Assembly (NCBI GenBank): GCA_033065855.1
Contig: JAVXUO010003135.1
Location: forward strand, 124,001 to 188,000
Direction of reading: 5' to 3'
Source: Escallonia rubra
Taxonomy: Eukaryota; Streptophyta; Magnoliopsida; Escalloniales; Escalloniaceae
DNA: 64,000 nt
Shown: positions 6,297 through 64,000 of the stretch, one piece after another
Position numbering within the stretch: position 1 is the stretch's first letter
How the letters are laid out: the number at the start of each line of letters is the position of its first letter
Notes under the pieces: generated by a model
What the model saw: the letters and a program-made list of their open reading frames with translations, nothing else
Databases searched by the model: none
What the model was told of the DNA's origin: nothing
Program-made: the position numbers and the translations under genes

Positions 6297-6344
6297 GAGG
6301 CATACCCCCCAAGACCCAACAACGCCATCACCATACTCTTCTTT

Positions 6345-7974
6345 ATGGCCGGCGTTATCCCTCTTTCCCTCCTCGTTTTGAATGTCTTCCTGTGCTTTTC
6401 AGCCGGTGAGCTCCAACAAACCCCCAATTCCTGAATTGCATCCACTGTGTCATGTTATGATTTCCTTTTTCATTTTATCCTCCTGTGTTTTGCAGGCGTG
6501 CATTCTAAAACATTGAAGCTAGCCAACGAGTGCGGCCACACTGTCTGGGCGGCGACAGTCTCAGACGACGGGACGCTACCGCTCTTCACCGACGCTTTAG
6601 CCCTTCTACCCGGCAAGTCAACCACCATCTCTCTCCCCGCCTCCTGGTCTGGCTGCATCTGGGGCCGCACCTTCTGTACCTACGACGCCATTGGCAGGTT
6701 TACTTGCGCAACAGGCGATTGTGACTCGAGCTCGCCGGAATGCGCGTGTGCGAGCGCCCAACCTCCGGTGACCATGGCCGAGTTCAAACTCAGCAGCCCT
6801 GGTTATTTGGACTTTTACGTCGTGAGTGCGTGGCGTGGTTACAATCTGGGGTTGTTGGTGGTCCCTCTCGGTGGTAGCGGAGGCGATTGTATGGCCACCG
6901 GGTGCGTCAAGGATGTTGAAGGCTTCTGCAATTCTGAACCGAGTGGCGGGTGCAGCCCATGCTTCGGGTACAGCGGCACCAACTACTGCTGCAGCGGAGC
7001 GTACACCAGGCCAGATACGTGCAAGCCGAGTCCCTACTCGCAGTATTTCAAAAGCAAGTGTCCATGGGCTTATAGGTACGCGAATGATGACGGAAAGAGT
7101 ACGAGGAAGTTCGATTGTGCCTCTTCTCACTATGTCATCACCTTTTGTCCACATCCTTCCACCGGGTATATCTCTCTTATCAATATTTTACCCTTACCTG
7201 CAAGAACGTGCAACTTGTCTAAACTAAACTTTGTGCCTTGTGTATGTTCAACTCAATTATATGTCCAAATAGTCCATGCATTTATATAAACCAGCCTCGA
7301 TCCCTTGTGTTCTGGTTGCTTTGGAGTTGATAACCAAGGCACCAGGTCAACGGTTCAAGGGCTGGTAGAGAGAGGGCCATGAATTGATTGTGTGTCTATT
7401 TGATGGAAGAAGTGTCCGTCATTGTTGGAGTGACGCACCCACACCCATTTTTTTTGGCATTCCGAAAGCAAAGTCCGTATTACCGGAGAGAGTACACTTT
7501 TACTTTATTATGGTGCAAGGGAGGACTTTATGTATATCCTTGTCACGCTTTCTCTGGTTTGAATAACCCATGTGTCAATGTATGGGCACGGGTCAAGTTA
7601 GAAATACTAGTGGTCTTTATTATATTTTATTTTTTCACTTTAACCATTGCAATGAGACAATGACGGACTTGAAAAGTTACAATTAACTCACATCATATAA
7701 CGAATAAGGGATTACTCATTGTCAATCTGTAATTGCATGTTCTAATACTTCGTTAGTTGTTTACTTGTAATGCAGCCAGGAATCTTCCACAGGAGCCGTA
7801 TCTGGGCCATTTGGGGTGAAAATAAAAAAGGTGATCGTTATTGTACTTGTGGTGCTTACCGCAGTCATAGCAGTTTTGCTAGTCATCTATAAAATTTTAG
7901 ACCCTGGTCTGGTGGTTAGTATTGTTTCTGCGGTATATACCGCACTTGGCCTATTAATGTTCGTCTTCTTGTGA
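6345..7974 (+). CDS. Thaumatin-like protein with C-terminal membrane hairpin (TLP1)
   Basis: Three exons, 6345-6405, 6496-7165 and 7776-7974, with GT-AG introns of 90 and 610 bp, give 309 aa. Residues 1-21 are a signal peptide; about 26-243 form a thaumatin (PR-5) domain. The family signature region reads GRFTCATGDCDSSSPEC, followed by a CC pair and the ITFCP end. Eighteen cysteines are present against the usual 16; the extras are in SGCIWGRT and ECAC. The acidic-cleft segment reads DFYVVSAWRGYN where the family has DFYDVSLVDGYN, so two Asp are lost. The last exon adds a Lys-rich linker (about 244-262) and two hydrophobic helices (263-282 and 289-309) around KILDPG. PR-5 proteins are secreted or vacuolar defence proteins; membrane anchoring is inferred. 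Start chosen as the ATG with TATA box, signal peptide and matching phase; an alternative exon 1 lies at 5678. Apparently intact. Confidence 0.88.
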
Positions 7975-11335: not shown

Positions 11336-12309
11336 TACTTTATATGTGGATTTATATATACAAAACTGAAAGCGGTTTAATTTGATGTTGTATGTACAAA
11401 CTAACGAGAGAATCTCCTTTTTTGTGCAAGAAGTTAACTAGAAATGTGGAGACAAAAAGTATTCACTTTCTCTTAAAATGCAGTTATATTTGTAGAAGAG
11501 ATTTGATAAAAAAAAATAAAAACCTAGTAAGGATTGGTCATTTCTATAAGGAATTATAGCACACCGAATTTATTTTCCAAATCTCTCCTAGAACTTAGTA
11601 AATTCATCTTATCAACAAGAAATTTTGTGCAATGTATTTTCGAATCCTCTAAGAAACTTTCAGTTTAATTATCTCATCCAAATACATTATTACGAGTTGA
11701 TAAACTGCCTAATCCCTTTTTTTTTGGATAAACTTTACACCTAAGCTTCGGTTGCTTGCAAGGCCACTCTATGACCGGGACTTTTAGGAATCTTGACATC
11801 ATTGATGGGACTTTTAGAATGTGTTTAAATGAAAGATTTCTAAAAATTTGTTTGTTTTCAAATTTATGAAATTAAAAATTTAATGTTTGGACAATTTTAT
11901 AGAAACAAGTACTTTATATGTGGATTTACATATACAAAACTGAACTCGGTTTAATTTGATGTTGTATGTACAAACTAACGAGAGAATCTCCTTTTTTTGT
12001 GCAAGAAGTTAACTAGAAATGTGGAGACAAAAAATATTCACTTTCCCTTAAAATGCAGTTACATCTGTAGAAGAGATTTGATAAAAAAAAAAACTAGTAG
12101 GGACCGGTCATTTCTATAAGGAATCATAGCACACTGAATTTATTTTCCAAATCTCTCCTAGAACATAGTAAATTCATCTTATCAACAAGAGATTTTGTGC
12201 AATGTATTTTTGAATCCTCTAAGATACTTTCAGTTTAATTATCTCATCCAAATACATTCTTACGAGTTGATAAACACTGCCTAATCCCTTTATTTTTTAT
12301 TTTTGGATA
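11336..12309. repeat. Two direct copies of a 0.4-kb segment
   Basis: 11,336-11,732 and 11,910-12,309 are close direct repeats, starting tactttatatgtggattta and ending gcctaatcccttt. Between them lies the start of tandem unit 2. Neither copy is present in the right arm of the inverted duplication. Confidence 0.85.
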
Positions 12310-14400: not shown

Positions 14401-14461
14401 ATTAATTATTCCTGGTAACAACTTAAAATGGAGTTAGGGTTTCCCGCCGTGGTAGCTTTAC

Positions 14462-16239
14462 TTTTTTTTTTTTTGGTTAAAGGTCCTTTGTATTCATTTA
14501 AGCTCAATCATATACAAGAAAGACATATTTCAGCTATACATTTGCTGTGTGCTCTATTTTACAATATGAACATTATACTAAAGGTAGTCTTGGCATATCT
14601 AAACCCCATGCTTGGCAGATTTCCCTGTTTTGCTCTGTTGCATGACTTTGTTTCCAGCTAAGGGTTCTATAATATATCCACTGCTTGATCATTTGCATGA
14701 ATCCCTTCTCTGTAGCTTTTTTCTCACTGAAAATTCTTGCATTCCTCTCTTGCCAAATCCCATATATTACCACAGCAATTATGAGTTTACACATTCTGGC
14801 TTTGAAGCTTTTCCCCCTGAAATGTACCATTGAGTATTGACTGAACTGCTGCCATGATATTAGTGGTATCTTCATGTTCATTTTCTCAAAAGCCTCTTTC
14901 CATATATTCTGTGCATAAGAGCATTGCACAAAAAGGTGGTCTTCAGTTTCAGAATAGTTGCTGCACAGGACACACTGATCATCTTGGATAATATTCCATG
15001 TCTTTAACTTTGTCTTAGTTCTCAAACCCCTTTTATATAATAGCCAAAGGATCACAGCACATCTTGGAATGTGCCCTTTGAACCAAATCAACTTGCTCCA
15101 GGGAGCCCTTGGGCCTTTTGATCTAAGTCCCTCCCATGCTGATTTGATGGTAAACTCACCATTGGGATTGAGTCTCCATGTTACCTCATCATGATTCCCA
15201 TTAGCAGGGGCTGGTCTTGTGGCCAAGATTTTGTTCAAGCTTTTGAGTTCCTCTGATCTGTTATGTAACAAATTCCATTGATTGCCTTCTATGATCTCAC
15301 TGACTTTGGCATTGATTCCCAGGCCTGAGTCATATATGATCCTCTGCCCATATTGCTGAATTATTGGTATCTCTAGGATCCAATTGTCTAACTACAACCA
15401 AGTTGAATTCCCACTTCCCACTTTATAATATATGAATTGGCTGCATTTTCCTCTGAGCTTTAAAAGTTTGCACCAAGTCCATGACAAGGATACTGGTGGC
15501 TTGAAGGTCCATAGATGTCTCTGTTTGATGATGAAAATGTGGCACCATTTCACCCATAGGGAATCCTTTTTGTGAGCTAGATCCCAAAGGTGTTTGCAAA
15601 TAACAGCCTTATTCCACTCCTCTACTCTTTTTAAGCCTAAACCTCCTTCATTTTTTGGAAGGCATAAGTTTTTCCAGGCTACTTTAGCTCCATTGCATTT
15701 AGCATCCTTGCCATGCCAAACAAAAGCTCTAATTTTTCCTTTAATCAACTTGATAATGCTTTTTGGTAGTATGAAGATGGAACACCAATAAACAAACATA
15801 CTACTCAAAACTGAAATTGCCACTTGTAATCTGCCAGCATAAGAGAGAGTTTTAGTTGCCCAGCATGAGATCTTCTTTGTCAACTTCTCTACAAGCATTT
15901 TGCAATCCTGGATTTGTAGCTTAGTTGATATTAAAGGCACTCCAAGATATGTAACAAGCAACTTTCCAATTGGTATACCAACTAGATCTGCCATGCTTCT
16001 TGCATTATCTTCATCCACACCAGCAAAAAAAATAGCACTTTTGTTTAGGTTGGGGGCTAGGCCAGATAGTTGCTCAAACTCCTCCAAAGCTGACTTGATA
16101 ATTCTGATGGTACATGGCTTAGCATGAGCTAGGAGAAAAAGATCATCTGCAAAACTCAAATGGTGTAACTGAAGCTCTTTGCATTTAAAGTGGTATGCAA
16201 GGTCCCTGTTTGCTGCATAATTTTGCATAATTCCAGAGA
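14462..16239 (-). mobile_element. 5'-truncated L1-type LINE
   Basis: A 1,778-bp insertion with a 13-T run at its left edge (poly(A) on the minus strand) is flanked by 16-bp repeats gccgtgg[t/c]agctttac (14,446-14,461 and 16,240-16,255). The empty site is preserved at 11,265-11,280 and at 62,811-62,826. Minus-strand coding from 16,239 to 14,573 gives the C-terminal half of ORF2: reverse transcriptase from just before the FADD catalytic box, through the thumb region, then a zf-RVT domain (CVLCSN...ETEDHLFVQC). There is no RNase H domain. The frame is open throughout except one TAG at 15,392-15,394 that likely replaces Trp, so the insertion is young. Confidence 0.93.
14573..16239 (-). pseudogene. 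LINE ORF2 fragment (RT C-terminal part and zf-RVT)
   Basis: About 555 codons of one reading frame. It has the FADDLFLL catalytic box near the N-terminus, the YLGVPL motif, then a GGLGLKRVEEWN block and a C-terminal zf-RVT zinc knuckle ending in a YGIWQERNARIF block. It belongs to the plant L1/LINE reverse transcriptase family, needed for target-primed reverse transcription. The endonuclease and N-terminal RT are lost by 5' truncation, and one in-frame stop interrupts the rest. Confidence 0.88.
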
Positions 16240-16351
16240 GCCGTGGCAGCTTTACGAACTTCAACTACAACTAAAAAAGAAAACAAAAAACAAAAAAGGG
16301 ATCATGGACAGGAAGGGGTAGGTTAGGGAAAGTGCGGCCTCTGGCACCTCC

Positions 16352-16358
16352 ATAAAAG
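16352..16358 (+). promoter_or_regulatory. TATA box of TLP2
   Basis: ataaaag about 95 bp before the ATG; the right-arm copy has ataaaac at the equivalent place (62,715-62,721, minus). Confidence 0.5.
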
Positions 16359-16448
16359 GCCCCCAAGGCATGCTCCTCAACCTCAAGTCTGAAATCAACT
16401 GAACCTCTCAGCTCCCAATCCCATACGACCAATTTCCAATTAATTGGA

Positions 16449-17633
16449 ATGGCGGAAACACTCTCTCTTGCCCTAGGCTTCCTCCTCCTAAATGCTGCCA
16501 TTCTTCCCTTTTCAGCAGGTGAACTACATGTAGCCAGCTAGCAGCATTTCACCCGCGTAAAAAGTTGCAGCAGCATTCCCTTTTTATTTTTTACGGAGTA
16601 GTTTTTATTACATGCATCTTTTCTATCTTTCTGCAGGAGGTGCATACTCAACCAGATTGAAGCTGGCAAACGAGTGCGCCTACACCATTTGGCCAGGCGT
16701 AGTTTCAGGCCGCGGGGAATCGCCCGTCTCCACCCTCGCCACCAGTTTTACGCTTGAACCGGGCGAGTCAGCTTCCATTTTCATCCCTGTCGGCCCATGG
16801 TCAGGTCAGCTCTCTGGGCTCGAACCCACTGTTCCTACGACTACACCGGTCGATTCACCTGCCTAACCGGCGATTGCGGCACGGGGTCCACAGAATGCGC
16901 CTCCGCGCAGACCGTGCCCCCGGTGACCGTAGCCGAGTTCAACATCAGTGGCAACGGCGGACTGGACTTGTACGTCGTGAGCTCCTTGCTTGGTTACAAT
17001 CTGGGGATCTTGGTGGTGCCTCACGCCAGCAGCGGAGGCGATTGCATGGCCTCCGGGTGCGTCAACGATGTCGAAGGCGGCTGCAAGTCTGAAACGAGTG
17101 GCGCGTGCAATAGCACGTGCTTCGCGTTTGGTGACCCTAAGTATTGCTGTAGTGGGGCGCACACGCGGTGCAAGTCGAGTCCTTACTCTCAGTATTTCAA
17201 GAGTAGGTGCCCCTACGTATTTGATTATTACATGTACGCTGGTACAAGGAATAATACTGGGCGCTTTGCCTGTATCTCTGCTGACTACGCCATCACATTT
17301 TGTCCACATCCGTCGAGGTAATTTTCCTCTTTTTTGTTTCTGTCATTATAAAAGGAATACCGGGTAAATCAGTAATCATCTGCTAAATTTATCTCTTATA
17401 ATATGTTTTAATAGATTTTTAATTGTTGGCAATGCAGCTTGAAATCTTCCACTAAAGCCGTATCTCGCCCATCTGGGGCTACGAGAACTAAAAGAGTCAT
17501 CGTTATAGTAGCGGTGGTTATTGTGACTGTTATAACTATTTTACTGATCGTTTTCAACATTTTGGACCCTGTTCTAGCGATTTCTATTGCTTCAGCAGCT
17601 TATACAGCTCTTGCCCTATTATATGCCTTATAA
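16449..17633 (+). pseudogene. Frameshifted thaumatin-like gene with membrane tail (pseudo-TLP2)
   Basis: This is the left-arm twin of TLP3, with the same exon layout: 16,449-16,518, 16,637-17,317 and 17,438-17,633, introns 118 and 120 bp. Exon 2 carries an extra CT in agctctctggg near 16,811-16,815, so the frame ends at 16,866 after about 100 residues. A 9-bp deletion near 17,165 removes three residues before a conserved Cys. Apart from these, the thaumatin signature (GRFTCLTGDCGTGSTEC, fully matching the PROSITE-type pattern) and the two-helix tail (TKRVIVIVAV..., NILDP, ...YTALALLYAL) are preserved. Splice sites remain consensus. A sequencing error at the CT repeat is the main alternative explanation. 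Its promoter lies just beyond the LINE insertion. Confidence 0.85.
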
Positions 17634-18050
17634 GAATTCTTGATTGGATTCGTTCAGGCAATCTTGTATACGTGTTTACGTTTTTCGTTCTTTATTTTTT
17701 TGCACGGAGGCATCCTTTGACAAGTCATCCTCGGCTTTTGCTGTTCACAAGGCCCTTGATTGTGTAATAGAGTTAGAAAATGTGAAGATAGTCTTACTCT
17801 TACTCTCTAATCAAGGCCTTCTTATTATTAGTTTTTGAATATCAAATTACTCATCTTGAAAAAGTGATGTTTTCTTCATATACATTTCGTTATCCCAATT
17901 GTCTATGGTGATTGTCTATGGTTTCCGAACAAAAACTTGAGTTTATTTGGCTTTACTAGTTTTTTCTTTGTTTCTTTGAATTTTTTTCACTTCACTTTCT
18001 TAGGATTGAGTTATTACTTGCAACTTTTGATTTGTACTCATTATTTTTAC

Positions 18051-18200
18051 TAGAGGTGGTAATGACAACCCAACATGATTTACTCGCTCAAATCCGTCTA
18101 CTTAATATTTATCCAAACCCGTCCATTAAATAATTGAGTTTAAATGGCCAATAATATGTGACCAATAATCCACGAGCTTAAATGGTTGCCCCTCAATTGA
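18051..18200. mobile_element. hAT-like terminus shared by both arms
   Basis: tagaggtggtaatgacaaccc followed by CAACCC/AACCCG-like motifs looks like a hAT end. The right-arm counterpart around 60,900-61,022 reads tagagttggcaatgacaaccc in reverse. The other terminus was not located. Presence in both arms means insertion before the inverted duplication. Confidence 0.35.
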
Positions 18201-19010
18201 TACAAAGTAGTATAGTCTGACTTTTTCTAAAAACTCAAACTTAAAATTTTACTCAACCACACTCGACAACAAGTGACCATGCTGCCGCCACCTCCCTCAA
18301 TCACCTGCTTGACCTTACCACCTGATTTCGTTGTCGTCACATCACCCATCGCTATTGCCACTATCGCTACCTATCGTCGTCTCAACCACCAATTGATCTT
18401 TTGTTTTTCATCAATTGCTATCTTGTGGGTGATCTTCAAACCTTGATTTGCACTGTTGAGTTTTGAGTTTTGAGTTTTGATGGCATAACGCCAACACAGT
18501 TGAAAACACATTACCTCTTTTTTCAGCTATAAAGAACTCATACTCATTCAAGCAATATAAATATTCCGTTTGTTTTACTGGGAATTGATGTGTTTATTGC
18601 ATAAACCATATTTGGTGCAAGAAAATTCTGTAATAAATGGAATATGTTTGTTTTGTCAATTAACTCTTCATGGAATCTCAAATTTCTTTTCACTTAGTTC
18701 AAAATTTGGGTTTCTTTGACCTACTCGCCATTTTCTCCTATATCGGATGAAGAACACCATAATCAACTTTTAATAAAAATATTTCAAAATCAGCTCTAAA
18801 ATTCAGGCACATACACAGGCACACGGATAAAGCCACTCATTATACAATACGTTGTCCTGAAATGAAATATCAGCCTATGGCAAGCCAAAAGGTACATTTT
18901 AATATTTTATGAAGGAGCTAGTAATAAAAACTCTCCCTACAAAAAATATCCTCTCTCTCTCCCCCCTTCCTTGCTTTTTCTTTCTCCCTTCCTGATGTAC
19001 TCCGTAATAA

Positions 19011-19011
19011 G

Positions 19012-19054
<43 letters not shown>
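19011..19054. repeat. (CT)n microsatellite
   Basis: About 21 CT dinucleotides, inside a repeated ccttgctttctctttctcc context. The right-arm counterpart near 60,048 is far shorter, so the locus has changed length since the duplication. Confidence 0.9.
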
Positions 19055-19055
<1 letters not shown>

Positions 19056-20054
19056 CCCTTCCTTGCTTTCTCTTTCTCCCTTCCTGATGTACTCCGTAAT
19101 AAGCTTCTTATAATGCCCATCCTCAGCCATATTTTGCTACGTCCAATCAAGTAGATCTACATGTGATAAATTTTTGGCGAAATTTAAGGTTTTTGGTGAA
19201 TTTCAGTTCTGGCCGAATATTCAATATTTGGATGATCGAGTGTTAACCTATGGTTCCTCGACTCATCTTGCGTTAATACACTTGTTGCATCGTCGGTTTA
19301 CAACCTTTTTTCGGTGACGCTTATCCGCTGAAATTTTATGATCATCGTTTTATTTGAACAGATCTAGTGTTCGTGGTCGCCTTGAGTCTCTGTTTCCATC
19401 GTCGAATTCCGGCCATTTTCTAACGATGGCCTTTTCACTCCTTTTCTTTGATTTTTTTTTTATTTTTTATGTTAGACCTATCAATTAGTGTGATCAAGAT
19501 GTGTCGTCATTTCTGTGCCCTGTTTCTAGACGACAGTCTACACTTGAAATTTCACGATTGTCATTTTCTTATATTAGATCCAAAGTCCAGTGTTAATGAC
19601 AAATTGCCAGTTTGGTCATCAGATTCCGGCCATTTTTTGACAACAACATTTTCACTTAAATTTACCGAGCATCATTTATTTCTAGTTTTTTTCTCCCTCC
19701 GGCGCGTGAGTATAGTTTGCAACTTATAAAAAGAAGGGCTAATTACACCTATGTCCCTGAGGTTTGGGGGTAATTACACTCGAGGACACAAAGTTTTAAA
19801 ATGTAACACTTATGTCCGTTGACAAACGTAATACAAAAAAACTTAACGGTTCTGACAAAAAGACCAAGTTGCACCTAAATAAAAGTTGAAACTCCTGATA
19901 TGCCCTTGGTCTTCTTCTTCAACCTTACACATACAAACACACACCAATCGCACGCCTGAGGGGAGATGGGGGTGAGGGGACAGTCTGAGAACTGTCGACG
20001 CCGGAGCCGAAGGCCGGAATCACCAGACGAAAGATCTGTCGCTGCCATTTAAGC

Positions 20055-20265
20055 GTCTTCTACCGCTGCTTCTCCGCCGCCTCCTTTGCCTGCAAAGCCA
20101 TCGACAAGCGCCTCCTCACTGACTCCATCGACAAGCTCCTCCACCTCCTCTCCGGCCATCCCAACATCATCTAGCTTTTCCACCTCTAGGAGGACAACGA
20201 CGCCTTCCTCCTCGTCACTGACCGTCATAACCAGTTGGTGGCACCGACAACGCTTCCTCGAACCA
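20055..20265 (+). pseudogene. Captured PEPC-kinase-like fragment
   Basis: Plus-strand reading from 20,058 gives FYRCFSAASFACKAIDKRLL, then TDSIDK, LLHLLSGHPNII, LFHL and EDNDAFLLVTD. This matches the N-lobe of plant phosphoenolpyruvate carboxylase kinases (PPCK), related to CDPKs: the ACKAIDK lysine of subdomain II, the SGHPNI segment and the ED-acid loop. Two in-frame TAGs and a short internal deletion before LLHLLS show it is not functional. It lies wholly within the Pack-MULE, so it was captured from elsewhere. Exact kinase subfamily inferred from motif recall. Confidence 0.7.
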
Positions 20266-20317
20266 CCCCAAGTGTAGACGATGAACACCGACAAGATGGC
20301 CTCTCTCAAATCTGCCG

Positions 20318-20395
20318 GCGTGGGGCCAAGGGAGGGGGATGTCGGCGTGGGGCAAGGGAGACGGATGTCGACGTGGGGCAAAGGAGGCGGCTACC
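20318..20395. repeat. Three copies of a 25-30 bp GC-rich repeat
   Basis: gtcg[g/a]cgtggggcaa[g/a]ggag occurs three times in tandem inside the Pack-MULE, just after the kinase fragment. Confidence 0.75.
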
Positions 20396-22848
20396 AGCGC
20401 GTGGAGATTGTTTGTCAGATTTGACCAAAAGTTTAATTTACAGATTGAGATTTAGGTTTTTGAAGCCCTAATTTGCATATTGAGAACCCTTTCTGATGCA
20501 GATTGAGAAATTTGATGAAATCAAGATAGAGAACCAATTAATTTTATGGTTTTACCTTGATCTTTAATTAAGGCTTGATATCTTAATATAAATTTTTAAA
20601 AAAAAATATACAGTACATACAGTACAAGGGGTAGTATTGTCATTTTTAAAATACGTATCGATGACATCATAAAAAAAGTACACTTTTTGGACGGAACCCT
20701 GACGGATGGATACGAGTGATACATTTGAAACACTTTTGGTCACGAAATGTTACATTTTGAAACTTTGTGTCCCTAACTGTAATTACACTCTATCCTCAAG
20801 GATATAGGTGTAATTAGCCCTCAAAAGAAAGTGTCTGGTTTTGAGTGATGGCTTATAGCCCTGCAAGGATACAATTTGATAAAATGGTTAAAACGAAACT
20901 CACTTACATCAGTATCCCAGTTATCTTACTAACCGGAGTAGAGATTAGGGAAAGGTTTAAAGAAACACTTTGGAACTTGCACATTGCACCTTACTTCCTC
21001 AACAAGTCTGAGCCACCACCGCTAATTGGAGTGACCACCTCCCCCCACCAGAACCCATCGCCAAACTAACGTCGCCGCCGTCCCCCATCACTGAACCCAC
21101 GCCGCCACCGTCACCCATCACCAGATCTACGCCGCCCTGCTCTACCGAACCGGACACCACCAAGCCAACATCAACTGCAAATGTCAGATCGGTGACTGGA
21201 TTGATGGAGAGGAGGGGAATAGTGTTTAGAGATAGGATCGATGCTTTAGAGAGGAAAAAATTAAACGAGGTTTTATTAAGAGATTGTGACGAGGGGGGAG
21301 CAGACGAAAAACCATGGAAAGCTGTGGTTGGTGAAGTGGTTGTCCATGTGCGCAACCCTGCATTATTATTGGGCTAATTCATGGCGAGGCTGTGAACTGA
21401 TGGGTTAAAGTTACAAATTTGCTCATGAAAAAGCTAGTATCACTGCAAGAATTTCAAAATTTCCCCATTTAATTAGTAAAATGGAACACAAATTAAAATT
21501 ACTAAGGTGAATTGCTTCGGAATTAAAACAGTTAAGTTGTGGGCATTCATCCTCAAAGAATTGATTGTCTAATAACGTATAAAAAGCTACTCTGATACTC
21601 TTCTTTAATGGACATGAAAAATTACGCAAATTTTTTGAAATCTTTCATTTTTATTATAAAGATATTTTGATCTTTCATATTCGCTTGTTATTTTGTTGTT
21701 TTTTTAATGGGAAACGATGTCTGAACTTTACTTTTTCACTTAAGTTATCTTTAGTATCGTTATATAACTACTTTCATGACAAACCGAGACATCTGATAAA
21801 TACAGTAAAACATGTTAGACAGCAAGACCCGACTCGTTAGGATCCTCTTTTTATTTTTATTTTTTATAAACTATGTGTTTAACGCTACACCTTTAACTAC
21901 ATAATTAAATTGCTTCATTAAAAACTAACCGAAAGCTTGACCGAAAGGATGTAGGGACTCGGAGAGATGCAGGTAAAGACCCGGTGTTTCCCGGATGCAA
22001 GAACGAACCAGAAAGTATTGGCACCACTGGCGATGCAAGAAAACTACGAGGTACGACTCTTCATAATAGCGTTGTTGATGACACATTTCCACAATCTTCA
22101 TTACTCCCGGCTTGTTTTAGTGCTGACACATCTTAACCAAATTATTAGAGGAAAAAAAATGCGTCAGTTTGAATCAATCGTATTACTTGTTGGTCTATTG
22201 ATTTTATTCTTCACAAGTTGTTCCTTTTAGTTCACTCTTTTTCGGTGGAAATACAAACAAATATGTGTATCAGAGAAATTCAAGTGGCCTCATTCAATTC
22301 TAGTACACCATTTGAACATAATTGAGTCATCTTGAATCAGGGCATTTCTGAAAGATTGTCATGGTATCTCAAGAACGAGGGTTAAGATCATGAACTTTGT
22401 TTTTGTGGGAATCAAAGAATTGACCATTCCATGTGGATGGTGACTATTTAACTTAAGTTCCATGCGAATTGTTATTGGATTAATTGAAACTAATGGACAC
22501 CTTAACTAGCCCTTACCGAAATTGGAAACAGCAAGCAATTTGATACCTTTTCTGGAAAAAAAAAAAAAAAGAGATAAAACGAAGTAGGAAGAAACCTGTG
22601 GACATTGGTGATGCCTGCAGCTCTACATCAGTTGATTGCTATTTTGAGAAAAAGCATCTAAGTTCGCAAGAGCTCGTAAATTGTCATTGTTATTCCCCTT
22701 AAAAATCAACGCTCTAATACTGAAGCCCTTTCTTCCTAAGTCCATTTCTCTTTGACAAAATCATTCCATGTCAACCTTCATTCACTTACCACCTCGTTGA
22801 CCAAACATAACTTTGAGATAAGCATATGTACTATCCTCCAGCTCGGTT

Positions 22849-52681: not shown

Positions 52682-53959
52682 ATGCAAGCTGGTCTCCCCA
52701 CGACAGAGCACGATGCTCTACACGGAAATCAACCACTTTCTCCTGATCTCATGGATGTAAATCAAATTCAACGACCTTCCTCACCTGAAGAAGAATTAGA
52801 AAGAAAGAACAGCAAGAAACCCAAAAGCAGCCACACAACTGTGATGGAAGTTGCGAATGTATTTCCCTCGGATGCCAGAAATTCATTCAAAGATCCTGTT
52901 ACAAATGGTGGAATCCCAATCATTCCCAAATCGTACAAGGATTCGGTCTCAGCCCCTAAATCAAATGCTGTCTATTTTGATAATGAAATTGAGGAAATCA
53001 CTTCTAATGAAGAATAGGAAGAAAATGAAAACATTGACCTTGTGAAGGAAGACGAAAATATGACAGAAGGAAAGGATGCTGATCCTATGCTTCCAAGAAT
53101 AAGGTTATCCTCGAATCTAATTAGGAAGATCAGGAAGCCTTGGAAATCAAGCCTCATCATCAAATTGATTGGGAAAACCATAGGTTTCCGAGCTGTAACC
53201 ACAAGACTCGGAAACTTGTGGAGCTTACAAGGCGATTTTGATCTGGTGGACTTAGATGATGGATTCTTCCTCATCAAATTCCATTTTCCAGAAGACTATA
53301 ATCACGTGACCAATGGCGGCCCATGGATAATTCTAAATCATTATCTTACTATCCGAAAGTGGGAACCAGATTTCAAACCTTCTGAAGCCAAGGAAATCAA
53401 GACGGCCATTTGGCTCCGCCTACCGAAACTTTCTATTGAATATTACGAAGAAAAAGTCCTGCGCAAAATCGCTATCAACTTTGGCAAACCTATCAAAATC
53501 AACATGAACACAGCCACATCTACCAGAGGCAGATATGCTAGGATTTGTGTTGAAATGGATCTCTCAAAGCCTTTAATTCCTGCATATATGCTACGTGATC
53601 GCAAATATCGCGTTCAATATGAATACCTAAACAACTTTTGTTTTCTATGTGGCAGGATCGATCTTCGGAAAGAAATCTGCAGTGATCGGACTTTGTTGCC
53701 ACCGGAGCAGATCCAGCAACTCCCCGGAGAAGGCAACGGTAACATCTCTAACTCAACGTTCTCTGAGCACAGCAATGGTGTCAGAACAGAACAGGAGAGC
53801 TCCTCCATACCTGGTTACTCCTGCCCTTCTTCCTTAGAAGAGGACACCTATGGGCCATGGATGATAGCGAGGCGTAGAGGGCACAGGCCCATCAGAGGTG
53901 TGATCCAAAAGATAACCCAGCCTTCAAACAGATTTGACAAACTCCGGGATACCCTTTAA
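52682..53959 (+). pseudogene. LINE ORF1 (DUF4283 and CCHC-like knuckle)
   Basis: Start at 52,682 (MQAGLPTTEHDALHG) because the upstream part of the open frame lies outside the element. The frame runs to 53,959 with one TAG at 53,015-53,017. The DUF4283 region includes LGNLWSLQGDFDLVDLDDGF and GGPWIILNHYLTIRKWEP. The zinc knuckle reads CFLCGRIDLRKEIC, where the usual GH is DL, so the zinc-binding His is gone. It is the nucleic-acid-binding ORF1 protein of plant LINEs. A further piece in another frame runs 54,106-54,609. Confidence 0.85.
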
Positions 53960-55562
53960 GAAGAGGCCGAACCAAAACCACAACAAAAAATAAAGACCCC
54001 TAGAGCATGGGCCAGGCCCAAGAGAAAACCAGCCCAATCACATGAAAAACCAACCAAAAAGCAGATACCCTAGAGGCGGGCAATAAGGCCCAACAAGATA
54101 CAGAAATGTCAGATTCCCATGTAAGCCATATCCCATTCAGTAGAGAAGCCACCCAGTCCACTCCAGGTCAACCCATTGAAGGCAGATTCCGGAAGGATGA
54201 TTCTGCCACTCACCCCTACTCACCCTCTACGGACATCAATGAGGACACCGATGTCATTCTCCCTGAAATTGTCTACCCAACCCAAAATATCTTATTGAAA
54301 CCACCGCCAACACCAGCCGCCACCCTTCCTCTCGCTCCCTCAGTAACCCAATCCCTAGTATCCCCACCGCGAACCCCCCGGTTCAACCACACCCCGTTCG
54401 GCCTCCAAACCCATCTAACAATGGACGACGCACCAATTTGTATTCACCACCTGATCCAGTTCATGATTAACTTCAAAATACCCCCATATACACCGGAACT
54501 CCGCATAGCACGGGTATTATGGAAGAACGAAGAAGTCCGAATGAAGATCGAATGCAATCAAATTTTTGATGCTATTCTGCTCACAAGGATTTTAGCTAGG
54601 GCTTTGTAGGTCACATTGAGCAAGCTTATGGGTCTGAATTGGGTGATGAGGGTGGGGATAACAGTTTTAAGGATAAGGGTGATGAAAGTTCTATTGTTTG
54701 TACTGGGCATTTTTTCCTTGAAAAAATAGTTTTTAATGAAATAGCATCAAAAAAGTTGTGCCACACCTTAAACAAAGCATCAAGTGGAATATCATCAATG
54801 GTAAAAAAGTTAGCTTTTGAAAAGATTGGTGGTGTGGAGAAAACACCCTGAATACTAGCCTTAATAGAAATGAAAATAGCAATTGCCTGGTTCAGGATTT
54901 CATTATAAATAAGGCCTGGAATATCTCTATTCTGAAGGAAATGGTTAATGAGAATATATTAACTAATATAAGCAGGATCCACATCCCTCAATATAGCCCT
55001 GATGAAGAAGACCAACCTATTTGGTACCCCAACCCTCATGGCAAATTCACCATAGCCAGTGCTTACAAAATGCTTACCCATGATGAGGATAGTCTCTCTG
55101 TCAATAGTGAAAATTAGAACTGGCTATGGAAGCTCAACCTCCCCCCTAAAATCATCATCTTTCTATGGCTTACCATACAAAACAGACTTCCCACCAATGA
55201 GCTAAGAGCCACCAGAAATATCATCAACTCCAGCTTATGCCAAAGGTACAAAACTTCTGTTGAGTTTGCCATCCATGCTGTTAGAGACTGTCCTAAAGCT
55301 CAAACCTATGGAAAAAACCTCTTTGGTCATAATAACCTTAATCAGGTCAGTAACCCCAACACCCTCAACTGGTTGAAGAACAACATCATTGGGAAAAACA
55401 AATATGTGTTTGCTGGTATTTCCTGGACTCATATGTTTATTGCCACAATCTGGCAAACATGGAAAGATAGAAACAAAGAGTGCATTGAGGAGGGACTCAC
55501 CATCCGTAATGACATCTCTTGGAAATATACGTTGGACTTTGCAAATGACTTAATGAAAGCAT

Positions 55563-56020
55563 TTGCCAAACCAACAGTCAGGAAATAACCCAGACCCATT
55601 TACTGGCTCCCCCCCTACAGGTACTTGCAAGATCAATACTGATGGAAGCAGGAAAGACGGAGACAAAGGCGGATTTGCTGGCCTAATCCGAGATGAAAAA
55701 GGCAACTGGATTGAAGGATACATGGGATATCTACCAAGCAACACAGCTCTGGAGGTGGAACTATTTGGTCTACTCAAAGGACTACAGCTCATCAAAGCCA
55801 GAAACATAAAGGAGGCCATCTTGGAGACAGACTCAGATCAAGCTAAAAATCTCATCATCAATTAACAAAATGTCTGGCACCCGTTATCCAGCCTAATTCT
55901 AGACTGCCGCGTTCTCCTACATGACACTTAATCTTCACTTGTTCACGTGCAAAGAGAAGGCAACAGATGTGCCGATTTCCTGGCAAAATGGGGGCCTTCT
56001 AAGATAAATCTTATATGCTT
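55563..56020 (+). pseudogene. LINE RNase H domain
   Basis: Type RVT_3 RNase H with the catalytic-type acids visible: Asp in TDGS, Glu in ALEVELFGL, Asp in ETDSDQ and Asp in NRCADFLAKWG. It is interrupted by a stop at 55,863-55,865. Found at the C-terminus of some plant L1 ORF2 proteins, where it removes RNA from the hybrid. Confidence 0.8.
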
Positions 56021-56818: not shown

Positions 56819-57664
56819 CTTGTGAACTTAGATGCTTTTCTCAAAATAACAATCAACTGATGTAGAGCCGTTCGGCATCAACATCGTCTACAGGTTTCTC
56901 CCTACTTCGTTTTATCTCGTTATTTCCAGAAGAACCGAATTTTTTAAAGATTATACATATCCTTTATATGCTGTGCACAACATTGAGCTTGAAAAGGTGG
57001 CAAGTGCCTACTGTTCCCAATTCAGAACTTCTGTAAGGGCTAGTTAAGGTGTCCATTAATTTCAATTAATCCAATCACAATTCACATGGAACTTAAATTA
57101 AAGAAATCACTATCTACATGGAATGGTCAATTCTTGATTACTTCAAATGACAAAGTTCATGATCTTAACCCTCGTTTTTGAGATACTAAGACAAACTTTC
57201 AGAAATGCCCTGATTCAAGATGACACAATTATGTTCAAATGCTGTACTAGAATTGAATGAGGCCACTTGAATTTCTCTGATACACATATCTGTTTGTGTA
57301 CATATCTGACGTTTTTTTTCTAATAATTTAGTTCAGATATGTCAGCACTAAAACAAGCCGGGAATAATGAAGTTGGATTGTGGAAAAGTGCCATCAACAA
57401 TGCTAGATATGAAGAGTCGTACCTCGTAGTCTTCTCGCATCGTCGGTGGTGTCAATACTTTATGATTTGTTCTCGCACCCGGAAAACACCGGGTCTCTAC
57501 ATGCATCTCGATCTCCAAGTCCTTACATCCTTTAATTCGATCAAGCTTTTGGTTCGTTTTTAATGAAGAAATTTAATTAAGTGTAGCTAAACAATGTTCA
57601 ACTACACTTAATTAAATATTAATTAAACACTTAATTTTTTAAATTTAAAAAAAAAAAAAAAAAG

Positions 57665-57830
57665 AGGAACCTTACGGGTCGGGTCTTGCTTCCTAACCCG
57701 TTTTGACTCGACCCGTGCCAACCCAAGCCTGGTTGAGTCAGATTTGGGTTAGACCTGACCCAACCCGTTTTTGACTCGCATTTTCTCAACCCAACCCCAA
57801 CCTAACCCGACCTATCCTCGCATTCCCTTT
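57665..57830. mobile_element. hAT-type terminal fragment
   Basis: Dense AACCCG/CAACCC motifs (taacccgttttgactcgacccg) typical of hAT subterminal DNA. The left arm keeps only a trace (gcaagacccgactcgttagg at about 21,822), so part was lost there or expanded here. Confidence 0.45.
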
Positions 57831-58240
57831 TTAATATGTGGAGTAAAAACTAAGAGACATGAGCAAGATGGTAAAAAATTAATATATTATATAACGATAC
57901 AAAATAGTTTAAGTGAAAAAGTAAAATTCAGATATAGTTTCTCATTGAAAAACAACAAGATCACAAGCGAATATGAAAGATTAAAAAAATTATATAAGAA
58001 AAATAAAAGATTTTCAAAAAATTTGCGTAATTTTTCATGTCCATTAAAGAAGAGTATTAGAGTAGCTTTTTACATGTTACAGAGTATTAGCTTTTTATAT
58101 GTTACGGAGTATTAGACGACCAATTCTTTGAGGGTGAATGCGCGCAACTTAACTGTTTTAATTCCGATGCAATTCACCTTAGTAAATTTAATTTGTGTTC
58201 CATTTTACTAATTAAGAGGGAAATTTTTGAATTTCCTGCA

Positions 58241-58717
58241 TCAACAAGTGAAGATAGAATGGTTACTCTCGTGGAAACCATAATACTTCAAATCTAAAAG
58301 TTCTGAAGTAATTAAACAATCGTGTAACTCCTGATAGTAGTGAGGCCATTTATTGTTACTCCCTAACTTCTCACTCGGACTCTGGATAGCATTAAAGTAT
58401 GTCCCCATTTCTGTGATATCCCGAAAATACCAGAAATTAATCTAACCGTCAACAAAAGCCATGCTAATCTACAACCGTTACTTTAGCGCGGCCCCTCGGG
58501 ACAAAGCGGACTATAATGTGGTTTGCCCGAATTGCTTCGATTACGCTTGCGAGTGGGGGGAGATGTCCAGCCTAGCTCCGGGGTTGTAGCAATTGGCCAC
58601 TGGTCGAAGTCGGGTTGGCCATAGCGTCTACTGGTGGTCCATTATTGACTGTGGATCTGGTTGCGTCAAAGGTAGCTCAGCGGCATGGCGGCAGCGGTTG
58701 GGTTTAAGGCCGTCGCA
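58241..58717. other. 477-bp segment present only in the right arm
   Basis: Relative to the left arm (single gca at about 21,448) this DNA is inserted between two gca triplets. It has no terminal inverted repeats, poly(A) or recognised coding content. It could equally be a left-arm deletion using the gca microhomology. Confidence 0.6.
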
Positions 58718-58813
58718 GTGATACTAGCTTTTTCATGAGCAAATTTGTAACTTCAACCCACTAGTTCGCAGCCTCACCATGAATTAGCCCAATAACAATG
58801 CAGGGTTGCGCAT

Positions 58814-59173
58814 ATGGACAACCTCTTCACCAACCACAACTTTCCCTGTTTTTTCTTCTGCTCCCCTCGTCACTGTCTCTCTTCTCTCTTAATAAAACCT
58901 TGTTTTTTCCTCTCTAAAGCATCAATCCTATCTCTAAACACTATTCCCCTCCTCTCCATCAATCCAGCCACCGATCTGACATTTGCAGTTGATGGTGGCT
59001 TGGTGGTGTCCGGTTCGGTAAAGAAGGGCGGCGTGGATTTGGTGATGGGTGACGGTGGCGGCGTGGGTTCAGTGACGGGGGACGGCGGCGACGTTAGTTT
59101 GGCGTTGGGTTCTGGTGGGGGGAGGTGGCCAAGGTGGTCACTCCAATTAGCGGTGGTGGCTCAGACCTGTTGA
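58814..59173 (+). other. Open frame kept in both arms (low support)
   Basis: A 119-codon frame, PATDLTFAVDGGLVVSGSVK then Gly/Val/Asp-rich repeats, is also open at 20,999-21,355 minus in the left arm with a different N-terminus. No domain was recognised. GC-rich repeats alone could keep it open. Confidence 0.2.
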
Positions 59174-61426
59174 GGAAGTAAGGTGCAATGTGCAAGTTCC
59201 AAAGTGTTTATTTAAACCTTTCCCTAATCTCTTCTCCGGTTAGTAAGATAACTGGGATACTGACGTAAATGAGTTTCGTTTCAACCATTTTACCAAATTG
59301 TATCCTTGCAGGGCTATAAGGCATCACTCAAAACCAGACACTTTCTTTTTATAAGTTGCAAACTATACTCACGCGCCTGAGGGAGAAAAAAAAAAAGGAA
59401 AAAAAAGACACCTCCTTGAGTACTAGAAATAAATGATGATCGGTACATTTAAGTGAAAATGTTGTCGTCAAAAAATGGCCGGAATCTGATAACCAAACTG
59501 GCAATTTGTCATTAACACTGGACTTTGGATCTAATATAAGAAATCGACAATCGTGAAATTTCAAGTGTAGACTGTCGTCTAGAAACGGGGCATAAAAATG
59601 GCGACACATCGTGATCGCACTAATTGATATGTCTAACATAAAAAACAAATCAAAGAAAAGGAGTGAAAAGGCCATTGTTAGTAAATCGCCGGAATTTGAT
59701 GATGGAAACAGAGACTTAATGCGACCACGAACACTAGATTTGTTCAAATAAAACGATGATCATAAAATTTCAGCGGATAAGCGTCACCGGAAAAAGGTTG
59801 TAAACAGACGATGCAACAAGTGTATTAACGCAAGATGACTCGAGGAACCACAGGTTAACACTCAATCGGCCAAATGTTGAATATTCGGCGAGAACTGAAA
59901 TTCAACAAAAACCTTAAACTTCGCCAAAAATTTATCACATGTAGATCTACTTGATTGGACAGATCAAAATATGGCTGAGGATGGGCATTATAAGAAGCTT
60001 ATTACGGAGTACATCAGGAAGGGAGAAAGAGAAAGCAAGGAAGGGGGGAGAGAGAGAGCGAGAAGCTTACTACGGAGTACATCAGGAAGGGAGAAAGAAA
60101 AAGCAAGGGGGGAGAGAGAGAGGATATTTGTTGTAGGGAGAGTTTTTATTACTAGCTCCTTCATAAAATATAAAAATGTACCTTTTGGCTTGCCATAGGC
60201 TGATATTTCATTTCAGGACAACGTATTGTATAATGAGTGCCTCTATCCGTGTGCCTGTGTATGTGTCTGAATTTTAGAGCTGATTTTGAAGTTAACAATG
60301 TATATTTTTATTAAAAGTTGATTATGGTGTTCTTCATCAGATATAGGAGAAAATGGCAAGGAGGTCAAAGAAACCCAAATTTTGAATTAAGTGAAAATAA
60401 ATTTGAGATTCCATAAAGAGTTAATTGACAAAACAAACATATTCCATTTATTACAGAATTTTCTTGCACCAAATATGGTTTATGCACCAAACACATCAAT
60501 TCCTAGTAAAACAAACGGAATATTTATATTGCTTGAATGAGTTCTCTATAACTAAAAAAAGAGGTAATGTATTTTCAACTGTGTTGGCGTTATGCCATCA
60601 AAACTCAAAACTCAATAGTGCAAATCAAGGTTTGAAGATCACCCGGAAGATAGTAATTGATGACAAACAAAAGATCAATTGGTGGTTGAGACGACAATAG
60701 GTAGCAATAGTGGCAATAGCGATGGGTGATGGGACGACAGCGAAAGCAGGTGGTAAGGTCAAGACAGGTGATTGAGGGAGGCGGCGGCAGCGTGGTCATG
60801 TGTTGTCGAGTGTGGTTGAGTAAAATTTTAAGTTTGAGTTTTAAGAAAAAGTCAGACTATAATACTTTGTATCGATTGAGGGGCAGCCATTTAAGCTCGT
60901 GGATTATTGGTCACATATTATTGGCCCATTTAAACTCAATTATTTAATGAACGGGTTTGGATAAATTTTAAGTAGACGAATTTGAGCGAGTAAATCATGT
61001 TGGGTTGTCATTGCCAACTCTAGTAAAAATAATGAGTACAAATCAAAAGTTGCAAGTAATAACTCAATCGTAAGAAAGTGAAGTGAAAAAAATTCAATGA
61101 AACAAAGAGAAAACTAGTACAGCCAAATAAACTCAAGTTTTTGTTCGGAAACCATAGACAATCGGGATAACGAAATGTATATGAAGAAAACATCAATTAT
61201 TCAAGATGATTACATTGATATTCAAAAACTAATAATAAGAAGGCCTTGATTAGAGAGTAAGAGTAAGACTATCTTCACATTTTCTAACTCTATTACACAA
61301 TCGAGGGCCTTGTGAACAGCAAAAGCCGAGGATGACTTGTCAAAGGATGCCTCGGTGCAAAAAAAAAAGGAACAAAAAACGTAAACACGTATGCAAGATT
61401 GCCTGAATGAATCCAATCAAGAATTC

Positions 61427-62625
61427 TTATAAGGCATATAATAGGGCAAGAGCAGTATAAGCTGCTGAAGCAATAGAAATCGCCAGAACAGGGCCCAAAA
61501 TGTTGAAGACGATCAGTAAAGTGGTTATAACCGTCGTAACAACCACCGCTACAATAACGATGACTCTTTTAGTTCTCGTCGCCACAGATGGGCGTGATAC
61601 GGCTTTAGTGGAAGATTTCAAGCTGCATTGCCAACAATTAAAAATCTATCAAAACATATTATAAGAGATAAATTTAGCAGATGATTACTGATTTACCCTG
61701 TATTCCTTTTATAATGACAGAAACTAAAAAGAGGAAAATTACCTCGAAGGATGTGGACAAAATGTGATGGCGTAGTCAGCAGAGATACAGGCAAAGCGCC
61801 TAGTATTATTCCTTGTATCAGCGTACATGTAATAATCAAATACGTAGGGGCACCTACTCTTGAAATAAAGCGAGTAAGGACTCGACTTGCACGTCTTAGG
61901 CCGGGTGTGCGCCCCACTACAGCAATACTTAGGGTCACCGAACGCGAAGCACGTGCTATTGCACGCGCCACTCGTTTCAGACTTGCAGCCGCCTTCGACA
62001 TCGTTGACGCACCCGGAGGCCATGCAATCGCCTCCGCTGCCGGCTTGAGGCACCACCAAGATCCCCAGATTGTAACCAAGCAAGGAGCTCACGACGTACA
62101 AGTCCAGTCCGCCGTTGCCACTGATGTTGAACTCGGCTACGGTCACCGGGGGCACGGTCTGCGCGGAGGCGCATTCTGTGGACCCCGTGCCGCAATCGCC
62201 GGTTAGGCAGGTGAATCGACCGGTGTAGTCGTAGGAACAGTGGGTGCGAGCCCAGAGCTGACCTGACCATGGGCCGACAGGGATGAAAATGGAAGCTGAC
62301 TCGCCCGGTTCAAGCGTAAAACTGGTGGCGGGGGTGGAGACGGGAGATTCCCCGCGGCCTGAAACTACGCCTGGCCAAATGGTGTAGCCGCACTCGTTTG
62401 CCAGCTTCAATCTGGTTGAGTATGCACCTCCTGCAGAAAGACAGAAAAGATGCATGTATTAAAAACTACTCGGTAAAAAATAAAAAGGGAATGATGCTGC
62501 TACTTTTTACGCGTGTGCATGGGGGTGGGTGAAATACTTTTTACATGTAGTTCACCTGCTGAAAAGGGTAGAATGGCAGCATTTACGAGGAGGAGGCCTA
62601 GGGCAAGAGAGAGTGTTTCCGCCAT
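61427..62625 (-). CDS. Thaumatin-like protein with C-terminal membrane hairpin (TLP3)
   Basis: Minus-strand exons 62,625-62,556, 62,430-61,743 and 61,622-61,427 with GT-AG introns of 125 and 120 bp give 317 aa, intact. Residues 1-23 are a signal peptide (MAETLSLALGLLLVNAAILP). The thaumatin domain (about 25-252) has exactly 16 cysteines, the full family signature GRFTCLTGDCGTGSTEC, the YCC pair and ITFCP. The cleft segment is DLYVVSSLLGYN and the WGRT motif is WART, so several acidic-cleft residues differ from antifungal PR-5 proteins. The last exon gives a Ser/Lys/Arg-rich linker (253-272), helix VIVIVAVVVTTVITTLLIVF (273-292), turn NILGP and a second helix to the C-terminus at 317. A secreted-domain, membrane-anchored receptor- or wall-associated role is inferred. 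The start is supported by the TATA box and conservation with TLP2. Confidence 0.92.
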
Positions 62626-62714
62626 TCCAATTAATTGGAAATTGGTCGTATGGGATTGGGAGCTGAGAGGTTCAGTTGATTTCAGACTTGAGGAGAGGAG
62701 CATGCTTTGGGGGC

Positions 62715-62721
62715 GTTTTAT
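62715..62721 (-). promoter_or_regulatory. TATA box of TLP3
   Basis: ataaaac on the minus strand about 90 bp before the ATG, at the same place as ataaaag of TLP2. Confidence 0.5.
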
Positions 62722-64000
62722 GGAGGTGCCAGAGGCCGCACTTTCCCTAACCTACCCCTTCGTGTCCATGATCCCTTTTTTTTTTCCTTTTTTAGTTGTA
62801 CTTGAAGTTCGTAAAGCTGCCACGGCGGGAAACCCTAACTCCATTTTAAGTTGTTACCAGGAATAATTAATTAATTCATTATAATGCGTACAAATGTGTA
62901 AAGTATGTGTAGCCGGACGGTACAAGTTTTCAAACAAAGGGCCCGGCTGATTGTGGGGCCCAGCAGTTCTAGTAATTCCATGATGAACAATGAAACAGAA
63001 CCAACTACCACTATTTCCTCCTTTCTCACAAGTCACAATCCCAGTGTATCTTATTCCTTAACGGCCCAATGCCGTGGGCGCGTGCGTGTGAGTGAGTGTG
63101 GGTGTGGTAATTTAGGGCCAACTTTTTCCCTAGGCGCTGGAATCAAAGAAAGAAGCTTTCTTGTACGTTTCACGTTGACATGCCCCCACCATCTTCCTTC
63201 CCACGAGATGTCAACATGCCGATAGGAACAATGCATTTGCCATCGCTTTCATTCTCATGGTCTTTGAAATAAGGGAAAAATTATCTTCTCCATCTGAAAC
63301 AAAAACTTTCATATATATAAAAAAATAATACTCCGTAATTAATAACAATAAAAAATGAAATCACCTAAGCTACTTTTTTTTAATGCTAGTACTTTTCTGT
63401 GAAACTTAATTAGTAGAGTGAAATCTAATATAGTAGCATACATTTGCAAGGACTTAGTAATAAATATCATTTTTGCGTTAATAAATAACAAGAGTAATGT
63501 ATAATCACCAAATCTTTTGTTGTAAATAATAAAAAATGTAGACAAACACAACTAATTCATACACCATAAATTAGTGATTGCAACATGGGCGAGGTGTGGA
63601 CTCTTAAGCGCTGATACCCTGCCAATAGCGACATGAGGTATAAAGCTTATCTTAACTTGAAAGAAAATTTTTGGATAAAAATGGTAATAAAAGCCTCTTT
63701 TTATACGTGAGTTGGAGGCTAAGATTAAATACAAATATTACCATTGCACAAGGTTACAAATTGTTAATTGTATGCCGAAAAAAATATAACCGTTGAAAAT
63801 GAATGCCGAAAATAAGGGTGGTGATAATGGTACTTAAATCATGAAACCCATCACTTAAACGGGTAACCTAAAGGCTCCGTATATATTTTATAGTATAAAC
63901 ATGGTGCAATAGTCCCTTATCCAACTTGAAAAAATACCAACTCATATCTCCCGCCCTTGTCCTTTCCTCCTTGAAGAACGTACGAGTATAACACTCAAGT

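Follow-up and report, generated by a model that had tools for sequence, protein, structure and literature searches.

A candidate family of membrane-anchored thaumatin-domain (PR-5) proteins in Escallonia rubra with a two-segment C-terminal tail and an altered acidic cleft

The window, by which we mean the whole 64-kb stretch of DNA analysed here, contains three loci (TLP1, TLP2 and TLP3) at which a thaumatin domain is followed by an exon for a hydrophobic tail (Table 1). The spliced models of TLP1 (309 residues) and TLP3 (317 residues) consist of three exons each, with GT/AG read at their junctions and phase 2 for intron 2 of both, and the boundaries of TLP3 are exact, its ATG lying at 62625 and its stop codon ending at 61427. 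Both proteins match PF00314 from end to end (profile positions 1–209 of 209; cut-off 27.4 bits, scores in Table 1) and contain 18 (TLP1) and 16 (TLP3) cysteines. The original prediction described all three loci as a normal PR-5 domain spliced to the tail exon, which holds for the intact models of TLP1 and TLP3 but fails for TLP2, where two bases inserted relative to TLP3 (16810–16811) break the frame of the spliced protein in exon 2. TLP2 and TLP3 lie inside a large inverted repeat and are 96.4% identical over 1292 aligned bases; as a frameshifted, inverted copy of TLP3, TLP2 was rejected as independent support. TLP2 also lacks 9 bases near 17167, and its tail exon is intact nonetheless. The inverted duplication (window 9805–22454 and 57096–63975) has many arms that are 88–98% complementary, and it spans TLP2, TLP3 and their flanks. 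Fragments of non-LTR retrotransposons are found at window 14573–16264 (minus strand) and 53018–55865 (plus strand), with the domains zf-RVT (4.8e-24 and 7.7e-12), DUF4283 (1.7e-28) and RVT_3 (1.2e-11), and with RVT_1 below its cut-off only.

Table 1. Positions of the thaumatin-domain genes and of the parts of their tails in the window.
Feature	Position	Strand	Evidence or remark
TLP3 exon 1, start codon and signal-peptide-like hydrophobic stretch	62556..62625	-	spliced model, GT/AG junctions
TLP3 exon 2, thaumatin domain (PF00314, protein residues 35–249)	61743..62430	-	185.2 bits
TLP3 intron 2, 120 nt, phase 2; donor AG/GTAA gives an in-frame TAA	61623..61742	-	
TLP3 exon 3	61427..61622	-	spliced model
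TLP3 exon 3, basic linker, 19 residues, K-R at its end	61565..61621	-	
TLP3 tail segment 1 (VIVIVAVVVTTVITTLLIVF)	61505..61564	-	hydrophobicity retained family-wide
TLP3 turn NILGPV	61487..61504	-	6-residue turn in 35/35 distinct tails
TLP3 tail segment 2, up to the C-terminus (LAISIASAAYTALALLYAL)	61430..61486	-	omega 0.5 for segment 2
TLP3 stop codon	61427..61429	-	
TLP1 exon 1	6345..6405	+	spliced model
TLP1 exon 2, thaumatin domain	6496..7165	+	180.2 bits
TLP1 exon 3	7776..7974	+	spliced model
TLP1 exon 3, linker	7777..7830	+	counted from translation
TLP1 tail segment 1	7831..7890	+	counted from translation
TLP1 turn KILDPG	7891..7908	+	counted from translation
TLP1 tail segment 2	7909..7971	+	counted from translation
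TLP1 stop codon	7972..7974	+	counted from translation
TLP2, frameshifted inverted copy of TLP3	16449..17633	+	
TLP2, intact tail exon	17438..17633	+	

In TLP1 and TLP3, exon 3 encodes a basic linker, a very hydrophobic segment of 20 residues (segment 1), a polar turn of six residues and a last segment that runs to the stop codon (segment 2), which follows KILDPG with 21 residues in TLP1 and NILGPV with 19 in TLP3. We searched the genome that contains the window (566,129,122 bases in 3222 contigs) with both tails. At E up to 10, the TLP3 and TLP1 queries gave 50 and 54 matches, of which 43 and 47, respectively, had an E of 1e-4 or less, and this recurrence across the genome is far beyond chance. 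Pooled, the searches identified 56 distinct places, a count that includes broken and likely haplotype copies (near-identical pairs on contigs C1899 and C2157) and thus exceeds the number of real genes; 50 of them score E 1e-3 or better with one or both queries and six are weak in both. For 44 of the 56 tails, a thaumatin-domain match lies upstream on the same strand at a distance of at most 7 kb, and 12 have none. Three of the 44 paired tails are more than 5 kb from their domain, one of these being a weak tail match. The genome contains at least 108 matches to PF00314, counted at the level of exons. None of the 33 matches above 200 bits has a tail within 12 kb, and the highest-scoring tailed domain reaches 189.9 bits.

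The DNA was examined at 41 of the 56 tail places, which yielded 38 open tails with 55 residues or more and 28 intact models of exon 2 plus exon 3, or 25 after near-identical models were merged. Our model search required a phase-2 donor soon after the FCP motif and, ahead of the tail, an AG in frame, with a preference for consensus sites. The shared phase of intron 2 is therefore partly assumed, as the search itself demanded phase-2 junctions, and the finding is the presence of good sites in each intact model (a GTAA donor in 25 of 28 and a TGCAG acceptor in all 28). Between FCP or LCP and the junction there are three whole residues in 12 models, four in 3 and six in 13. Most of the 28 tailed members (17) have 16 cysteines, the number expected of the PR-5 family; 15, 17 and 18 cysteines are found in three members each, and 14 in two. 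The cysteine of the GGCxSE motif, present in many other members, is missing in eight of the 28 models (on contigs C901, C1115, C55 and C524; e.g., L015, L086, L090 and L075), and in this subclade at least one disulfide seems to be altered. In L069 and L079 (C1899:209462–215247 and C2157:202464–207480), which are apparent haplotype copies, intron 2 measures 3040 and 2271 nt, whereas that of TLP3 has 120 nt, a difference that points to an insertion.

The anatomy of the tail was determined from 35 distinct tails, with segment borders taken from TLP1 on the alignment. Segment 1 has 20 residues (19 in one tail), the turn has six in all 35, and segment 2, with 18–21 residues, forms the end of the protein. 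The first residue of the turn is K, R, N, E or D; its last three places include P, G, S, N or D in every tail, and 26 of the 35 turns contain P. Segment 1 is the more hydrophobic of the two (mean Kyte–Doolittle value 3.39 versus 2.07), and segment 2 is marginally hydrophobic, with a summed Hessa-type score of about 0. No charged residue occurs in the last 10 positions of any of the 35 tails. Lysine and arginine are concentrated ahead of segment 1, with a mean of 3.0 among the last eight residues of the linker versus 0.86 within the turn. The single invariant column of the tail holds the second lysine of K-x-K, and segment 2 has an almost invariant TAL-x-LL. Scanned against Pfam with an E limit of 10, the 35 tails had no strong match, the best among the best 25 of 50 families being TMEM9 (E 0.0034), and the TLP3 tail matched four Pfam families, none of which reached its cut-off. 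A tblastn search with the tail in collections of prokaryote and virus contigs found no relative.

The tailed genes also differ from typical thaumatin-like proteins (TLPs) in the acidic cleft. At the site of the typical DFYDVSLVDG, the alignment places LDLYVVSSLLGYN in exon 2 of TLP3. Aligned to untailed paralogues, none of the 28 intact tailed members keeps either aspartate of YDVSLVDG, the first being replaced by V (16), G (11) or S (1) and the second by R (21), L (4), H (2) or S (1). Among the other residues that we take to form the REDDD cleft, an assignment that agrees with the alignment to PDB 3zs3, the glutamate is present in 13 of 28 members, the arginine in 27 and the late aspartate in 25. 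The same two aspartate changes appear in TLP3 when it is aligned with 3zs3. The untailed domains that were read first have both aspartates in nine of nine cases, although this choice (the eight best PF00314 matches and the domain on contig C79) favours typical residues. Five further domains with no detected tail vary: L094 and L095 have both aspartates, L096 and L097 the second only, and L098, which belongs to the tailed clade (see below), neither. Across the 13 untailed relatives, made up of the first nine and L094 to L097, both aspartates were read in 11 and the second in all 13. L096 (contig C393) and L097 (C1600) are untailed thaumatin loci in which the first cleft aspartate has changed. 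Judged by these alignments and by the pattern search below, loss of the cleft motif is uniform in the tailed family, yet it is not unique to it.

The degenerate pattern [FY]DVSxVDG has 23 exact matches in the genome, all 23 within thaumatin-domain matches, and of the 33 untailed matches above 200 bits, 19 carry it exactly. We found neither exact nor one-mismatch occurrences among the 44 tailed loci. A control pattern gave 39 matches against 68 one-mismatch occurrences of the motif, so most of the one-mismatch occurrences elsewhere are due to chance.

To place the tailed genes among their relatives, we built a tree of 42 domains, some of them fragments, comprising the 28 tailed members, L098 and 13 of about 60 untailed matches. 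The tailed members formed one group together with the degenerate locus L098, at which no tail was detected (split support 100), and among the domains examined their sister was L003 (C1900:181690; split support 99). L003 retains the acidic cleft. It shares the place and phase of intron 2 with the tailed genes: its phase-2 donor follows FCP and four residues, and its acceptor, TTGGTACTGCAG/CC, is close to theirs. The third exon of L003 ends in SGSGKSSRFHALLAAVMVVVAVGLWFI and, judged by eye, resembles a signal for a glycosylphosphatidylinositol (GPI) anchor. The original prediction had overlooked this GPI-like exon of the nearest relative examined, as it had the cleft change and the size of the family. 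L003 thus resembles the GPI-type or C-terminally extended TLPs of poplar clades 3 and 4, whose third exon likewise follows a phase-2 intron placed a few residues beyond the last cysteine and whose C-terminus is hydrophobic. These differ from the tailed family in having a single short hydrophobic end after a stretch of small residues and, in L003, in keeping the cleft.

As L003 is the nearest relative examined and the intron ahead of its GPI-like third exon matches in phase, the two-segment anchor would have replaced a GPI-type tail. Homology at the level of letters between the two exons is not convincing: when the linker and segment 1 were aligned to exon 3 of L003, the score was reached by 41 of 200 shuffles for the median gene and by one of 200 for the best gene. 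Used as a genome query, the GPI-like tail of L003 matched only L003 itself. A derivation of segment 2 by read-through into an L003-type 3' flank was tried and rejected, the alignment being no better than shuffles (median 119 of 200, best gene 13 of 200; 25 genes).

The same relative raises the question of whether the tail is itself an unusual GPI-attachment signal that is removed in the endoplasmic reticulum. The hydrophobic stretch does end the protein with nothing after it, as such a signal would. However, a GPI signal would have a single stretch of 15–20 hydrophobic residues behind a cleavage site and a spacer, while here the hydrophobic part spans about 45 residues in two blocks and K-x-K-[RKI] adjoins it. 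Were the turn the site of attachment, segment 1 would lie upstream and proline would mostly come next, given the composition of the turn, and proline directly after a GPI attachment site is disfavoured. Judged by eye, the tail does not resemble a GPI signal, and we consider this explanation very unlikely. A cleaved or sorting propeptide of the vacuolar type, which would leave a soluble mature protein, is an even poorer candidate. Passages of PMC13298582 discuss C-terminal vacuolar propeptides for some TLPs, and in the sole predicted-vacuolar case given there with a propeptide, the propeptide is short, at 18 residues, against about 45 residues of membrane-type composition here.

The evolution of the tail sequence was studied in two ways. 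Pooled pairwise dN/dS (Nei–Gojobori; 378 pairs of 28 genes, which are not independent) was 0.39 in exon 2, rising to 0.53 in the tail from K-x-K onward and to 0.90 in the linker, and TLP1 versus TLP3 gave 0.34, 0.42 and 0.77, respectively. In a codon model (25 sequences, fixed tree, coarse omega grid), omega was 0.5 for exon 2 (p 6e-30 versus 1), 0.5 for segment 2 (p 0.0017) and 0.8 for the tail core as a whole (p 0.03). The linker and segment 1 showed no departure from omega 1 in this model, which draws the base composition from the segment itself and is thus blind to constraint that demands hydrophobicity only. We also simulated neutral change along the tree in 300 runs and counted charged residues, the input being open tails found by similarity only, a bias that favours the result. 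Segment 1 contains one charged residue in 500, compared with a simulated mean of 24 and a minimum of 2 at scale 1; at half scale, six of 300 runs matched this low number. Segment 2 contains five in 481, a number reached in three of the 300 runs at scale 1 and in 53 at half scale, so the test is weaker for segment 2 than for segment 1. Segment 1 thus appears mainly to keep its hydrophobicity, and segment 2 also to retain particular residues. The earlier proposal of selection on the tail is upheld for the hydrophobicity of both segments and for the sequence of segment 2, but it does not extend to dN/dS in the linker and segment 1, which evolve at near-neutral omega in the codon model.

The tail probably anchors the protein in a membrane, as its composition and conservation suggest, and we hold this with good confidence. 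The anchored TLP subclass that the original prediction envisaged is now well supported by a conserved exon in a large clade, by the retained hydrophobicity and by the constraint on segment 2. In line with its further statement that the protein ends with no cytosolic tail, the first in-frame stop lies directly behind segment 2 in TLP1, in TLP3 and in the 28 intact models. The two helices in a hairpin are a different matter: TLP1 and TLP3 do have two hydrophobic segments around a short turn, and the lengths of segments and turn suit a hairpin, but AlphaFold2, run on the 35-row tail alignment, predicted one helix of 51 residues (residues 13–63; mean pLDDT 74.6, pTM 0.39). With its low pTM, this single helix does not settle the choice between a hairpin and a single span. 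AlphaFold2 on exon 2 gave no usable model (mean pLDDT 33.5).

We lean slightly towards a two-span hairpin over one span with a peripheral segment. Besides the single AlphaFold2 helix, the marginal hydrophobicity of segment 2 and the charge flanks, which are reversed for a lumenal N-flank, speak against the hairpin. A lumenal thaumatin domain would put the basic flank of segment 1 on the lumenal side, which would contradict the positive-inside rule. The hairpin may insert despite these charges, segment 1 alone may span the membrane, or the tail may have another role. Rather unlikely, in our estimation, is a single-pass anchor in which segment 2 rests on the cytosolic side, dips into it or is packed against a partner. 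Such an anchor would fit the much greater hydrophobicity of segment 1 and the absence of a hairpin from the AlphaFold2 model; it accords less well with a segment 2 that is 18–21 residues long, lacks charge in its last 10 positions and is the more sequence-constrained part.

With moderate confidence, we interpret the tailed genes as a lineage-expanded, cleft-altered and membrane-anchored subfamily of three-exon (clade 3-like) PR-5 proteins. A signal peptide would route the thaumatin domain through the secretory pathway, while the tail would stay in the membrane, with segment 1 spanning it and segment 2 returning. The domain would then be displayed on the apoplastic (or lumenal) face. Passages of a genome-wide study tie the acidic cleft to antifungal or glucan-lytic properties (PMC3048497), and because the cleft linked to these activities is altered here, we propose that the domain serves as a binding module fixed at the membrane, either receptor-like or a decoy. 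A receptor or decoy role is a guess, and a tentative one. Signalling, if any, would proceed via a membrane partner that touches the conserved small-residue face of segment 2 (SA-[IV]-YTAL-[GA]-LL). A more specific and more doubtful conjecture is that of a PR-5 family whose GPI exon gave way to a basic helical anchor of two segments, itself bearing a conserved interface, and whose cleft was dismantled, making its members kinase-less apoplastic sensors or decoys that signal via membrane partners. In a bolder variant, the cationic and hydrophobic tail would itself be membrane-active and aimed at a foreign membrane.

Membrane-linked thaumatin domains are known from the PR5K receptors, or TLP-kinases, in which a secreted thaumatin domain is likewise followed by a membrane segment. 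The sections of PMC3048497 on poplar describe TLP-kinases as a branch of the three-exon clade 3 with one transmembrane segment after the domain, which would fit a tail left over from such a receptor after loss of its kinase. Two kinase motifs were sought in the window, and neither was found anywhere in its 64 kb. Unlike the TLP-kinases, the tailed family has two hydrophobic segments and no cytosolic domain, the second segment being followed by the first in-frame stop in all 28 intact models. TLP-kinases are also said to retain the acidic-cleft residues (PMC3048497), whereas both aspartates are gone throughout the intact tailed members. Judged by the motif scan of the window, the intact models and the cleft, a kinase remnant is highly improbable. 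The original prediction that the tail fits neither PR5K nor a GPI-type anchor thus stands as regards PR5K, and its GPI part rests on the two blocks, the basic flank and a judgement by eye.

Anchoring of TLPs that lack a kinase is not new as such. Proteins with a thaumatin domain, at least one predicted transmembrane helix and no kinase have already been counted as receptor-like proteins ('RLPs') in legumes and other plants, with 7 to 28 per species in what seems to be the RLP table of PMC7333395. An RLP in this broad sense would have a signal peptide, an ectodomain and a transmembrane anchor but no kinase; TLP1 and TLP3 have a hydrophobic N-terminus and a tail that may serve as signal peptide and anchor, and no kinase motif occurs in the window. 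The RLP count differs in that one predicted helix suffices, with or without a signal peptide, and a two-segment tail or a loss of the cleft does not appear in the relevant passages (PMC7333395). FuTLP17 of Filipendula ulmaria likewise has two predicted transmembrane segments and an altered or incomplete REDDD motif. It has 254 residues and is not listed among the C-terminally extended proteins in the corresponding parts of PMC13298582, so it probably does not carry this tail. Among the open-licence papers listed by our searches, against which novelty was judged, we found no description of such a two-segment TLP tail, and one elsewhere is quite possible. On the sequence evidence, the two-segment tail is a real, conserved and sizeable feature of this PR-5 family.

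PR-5 proteins are usually described as soluble antifungals whose acidic cleft matters, with a small number of kinase receptors among them. A large family that couples a change of the cleft to a special membrane tail would be a third fate of the PR-5 fold, and it would allow the need for the cleft in receptor-type TLPs to be asked directly. We surmise that automatic annotation may truncate such genes at exon 2 or label the tail as an ordinary transmembrane helix.

Truncation after exon 2 might also occur in the cell. If intron 2 were retained, translation would stop right behind the thaumatin domain in most members, and splicing could switch between a soluble and an anchored form. In 25 of the 28 intact models, the stop codon begins one base past the end of the exon. 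GTAA is a common donor, and an immediate stop follows automatically from a phase-2 intron with this donor and hence is no evidence of regulation; moreover, the stop lies 121 bases past the exon end in TLP1 and 37 bases past it in the two near copies of TLP1. We regard a splicing switch as unlikely. At the other end of TLP1, a second, similar first exon was found upstream (window 5653–5753 versus 6319–6420), in which an ATG at 5678 reads MASVIPLSLLLLHVFLCISVG and is followed by a donor of the same phase. TLP1 may thus have two alternative signal-peptide exons.
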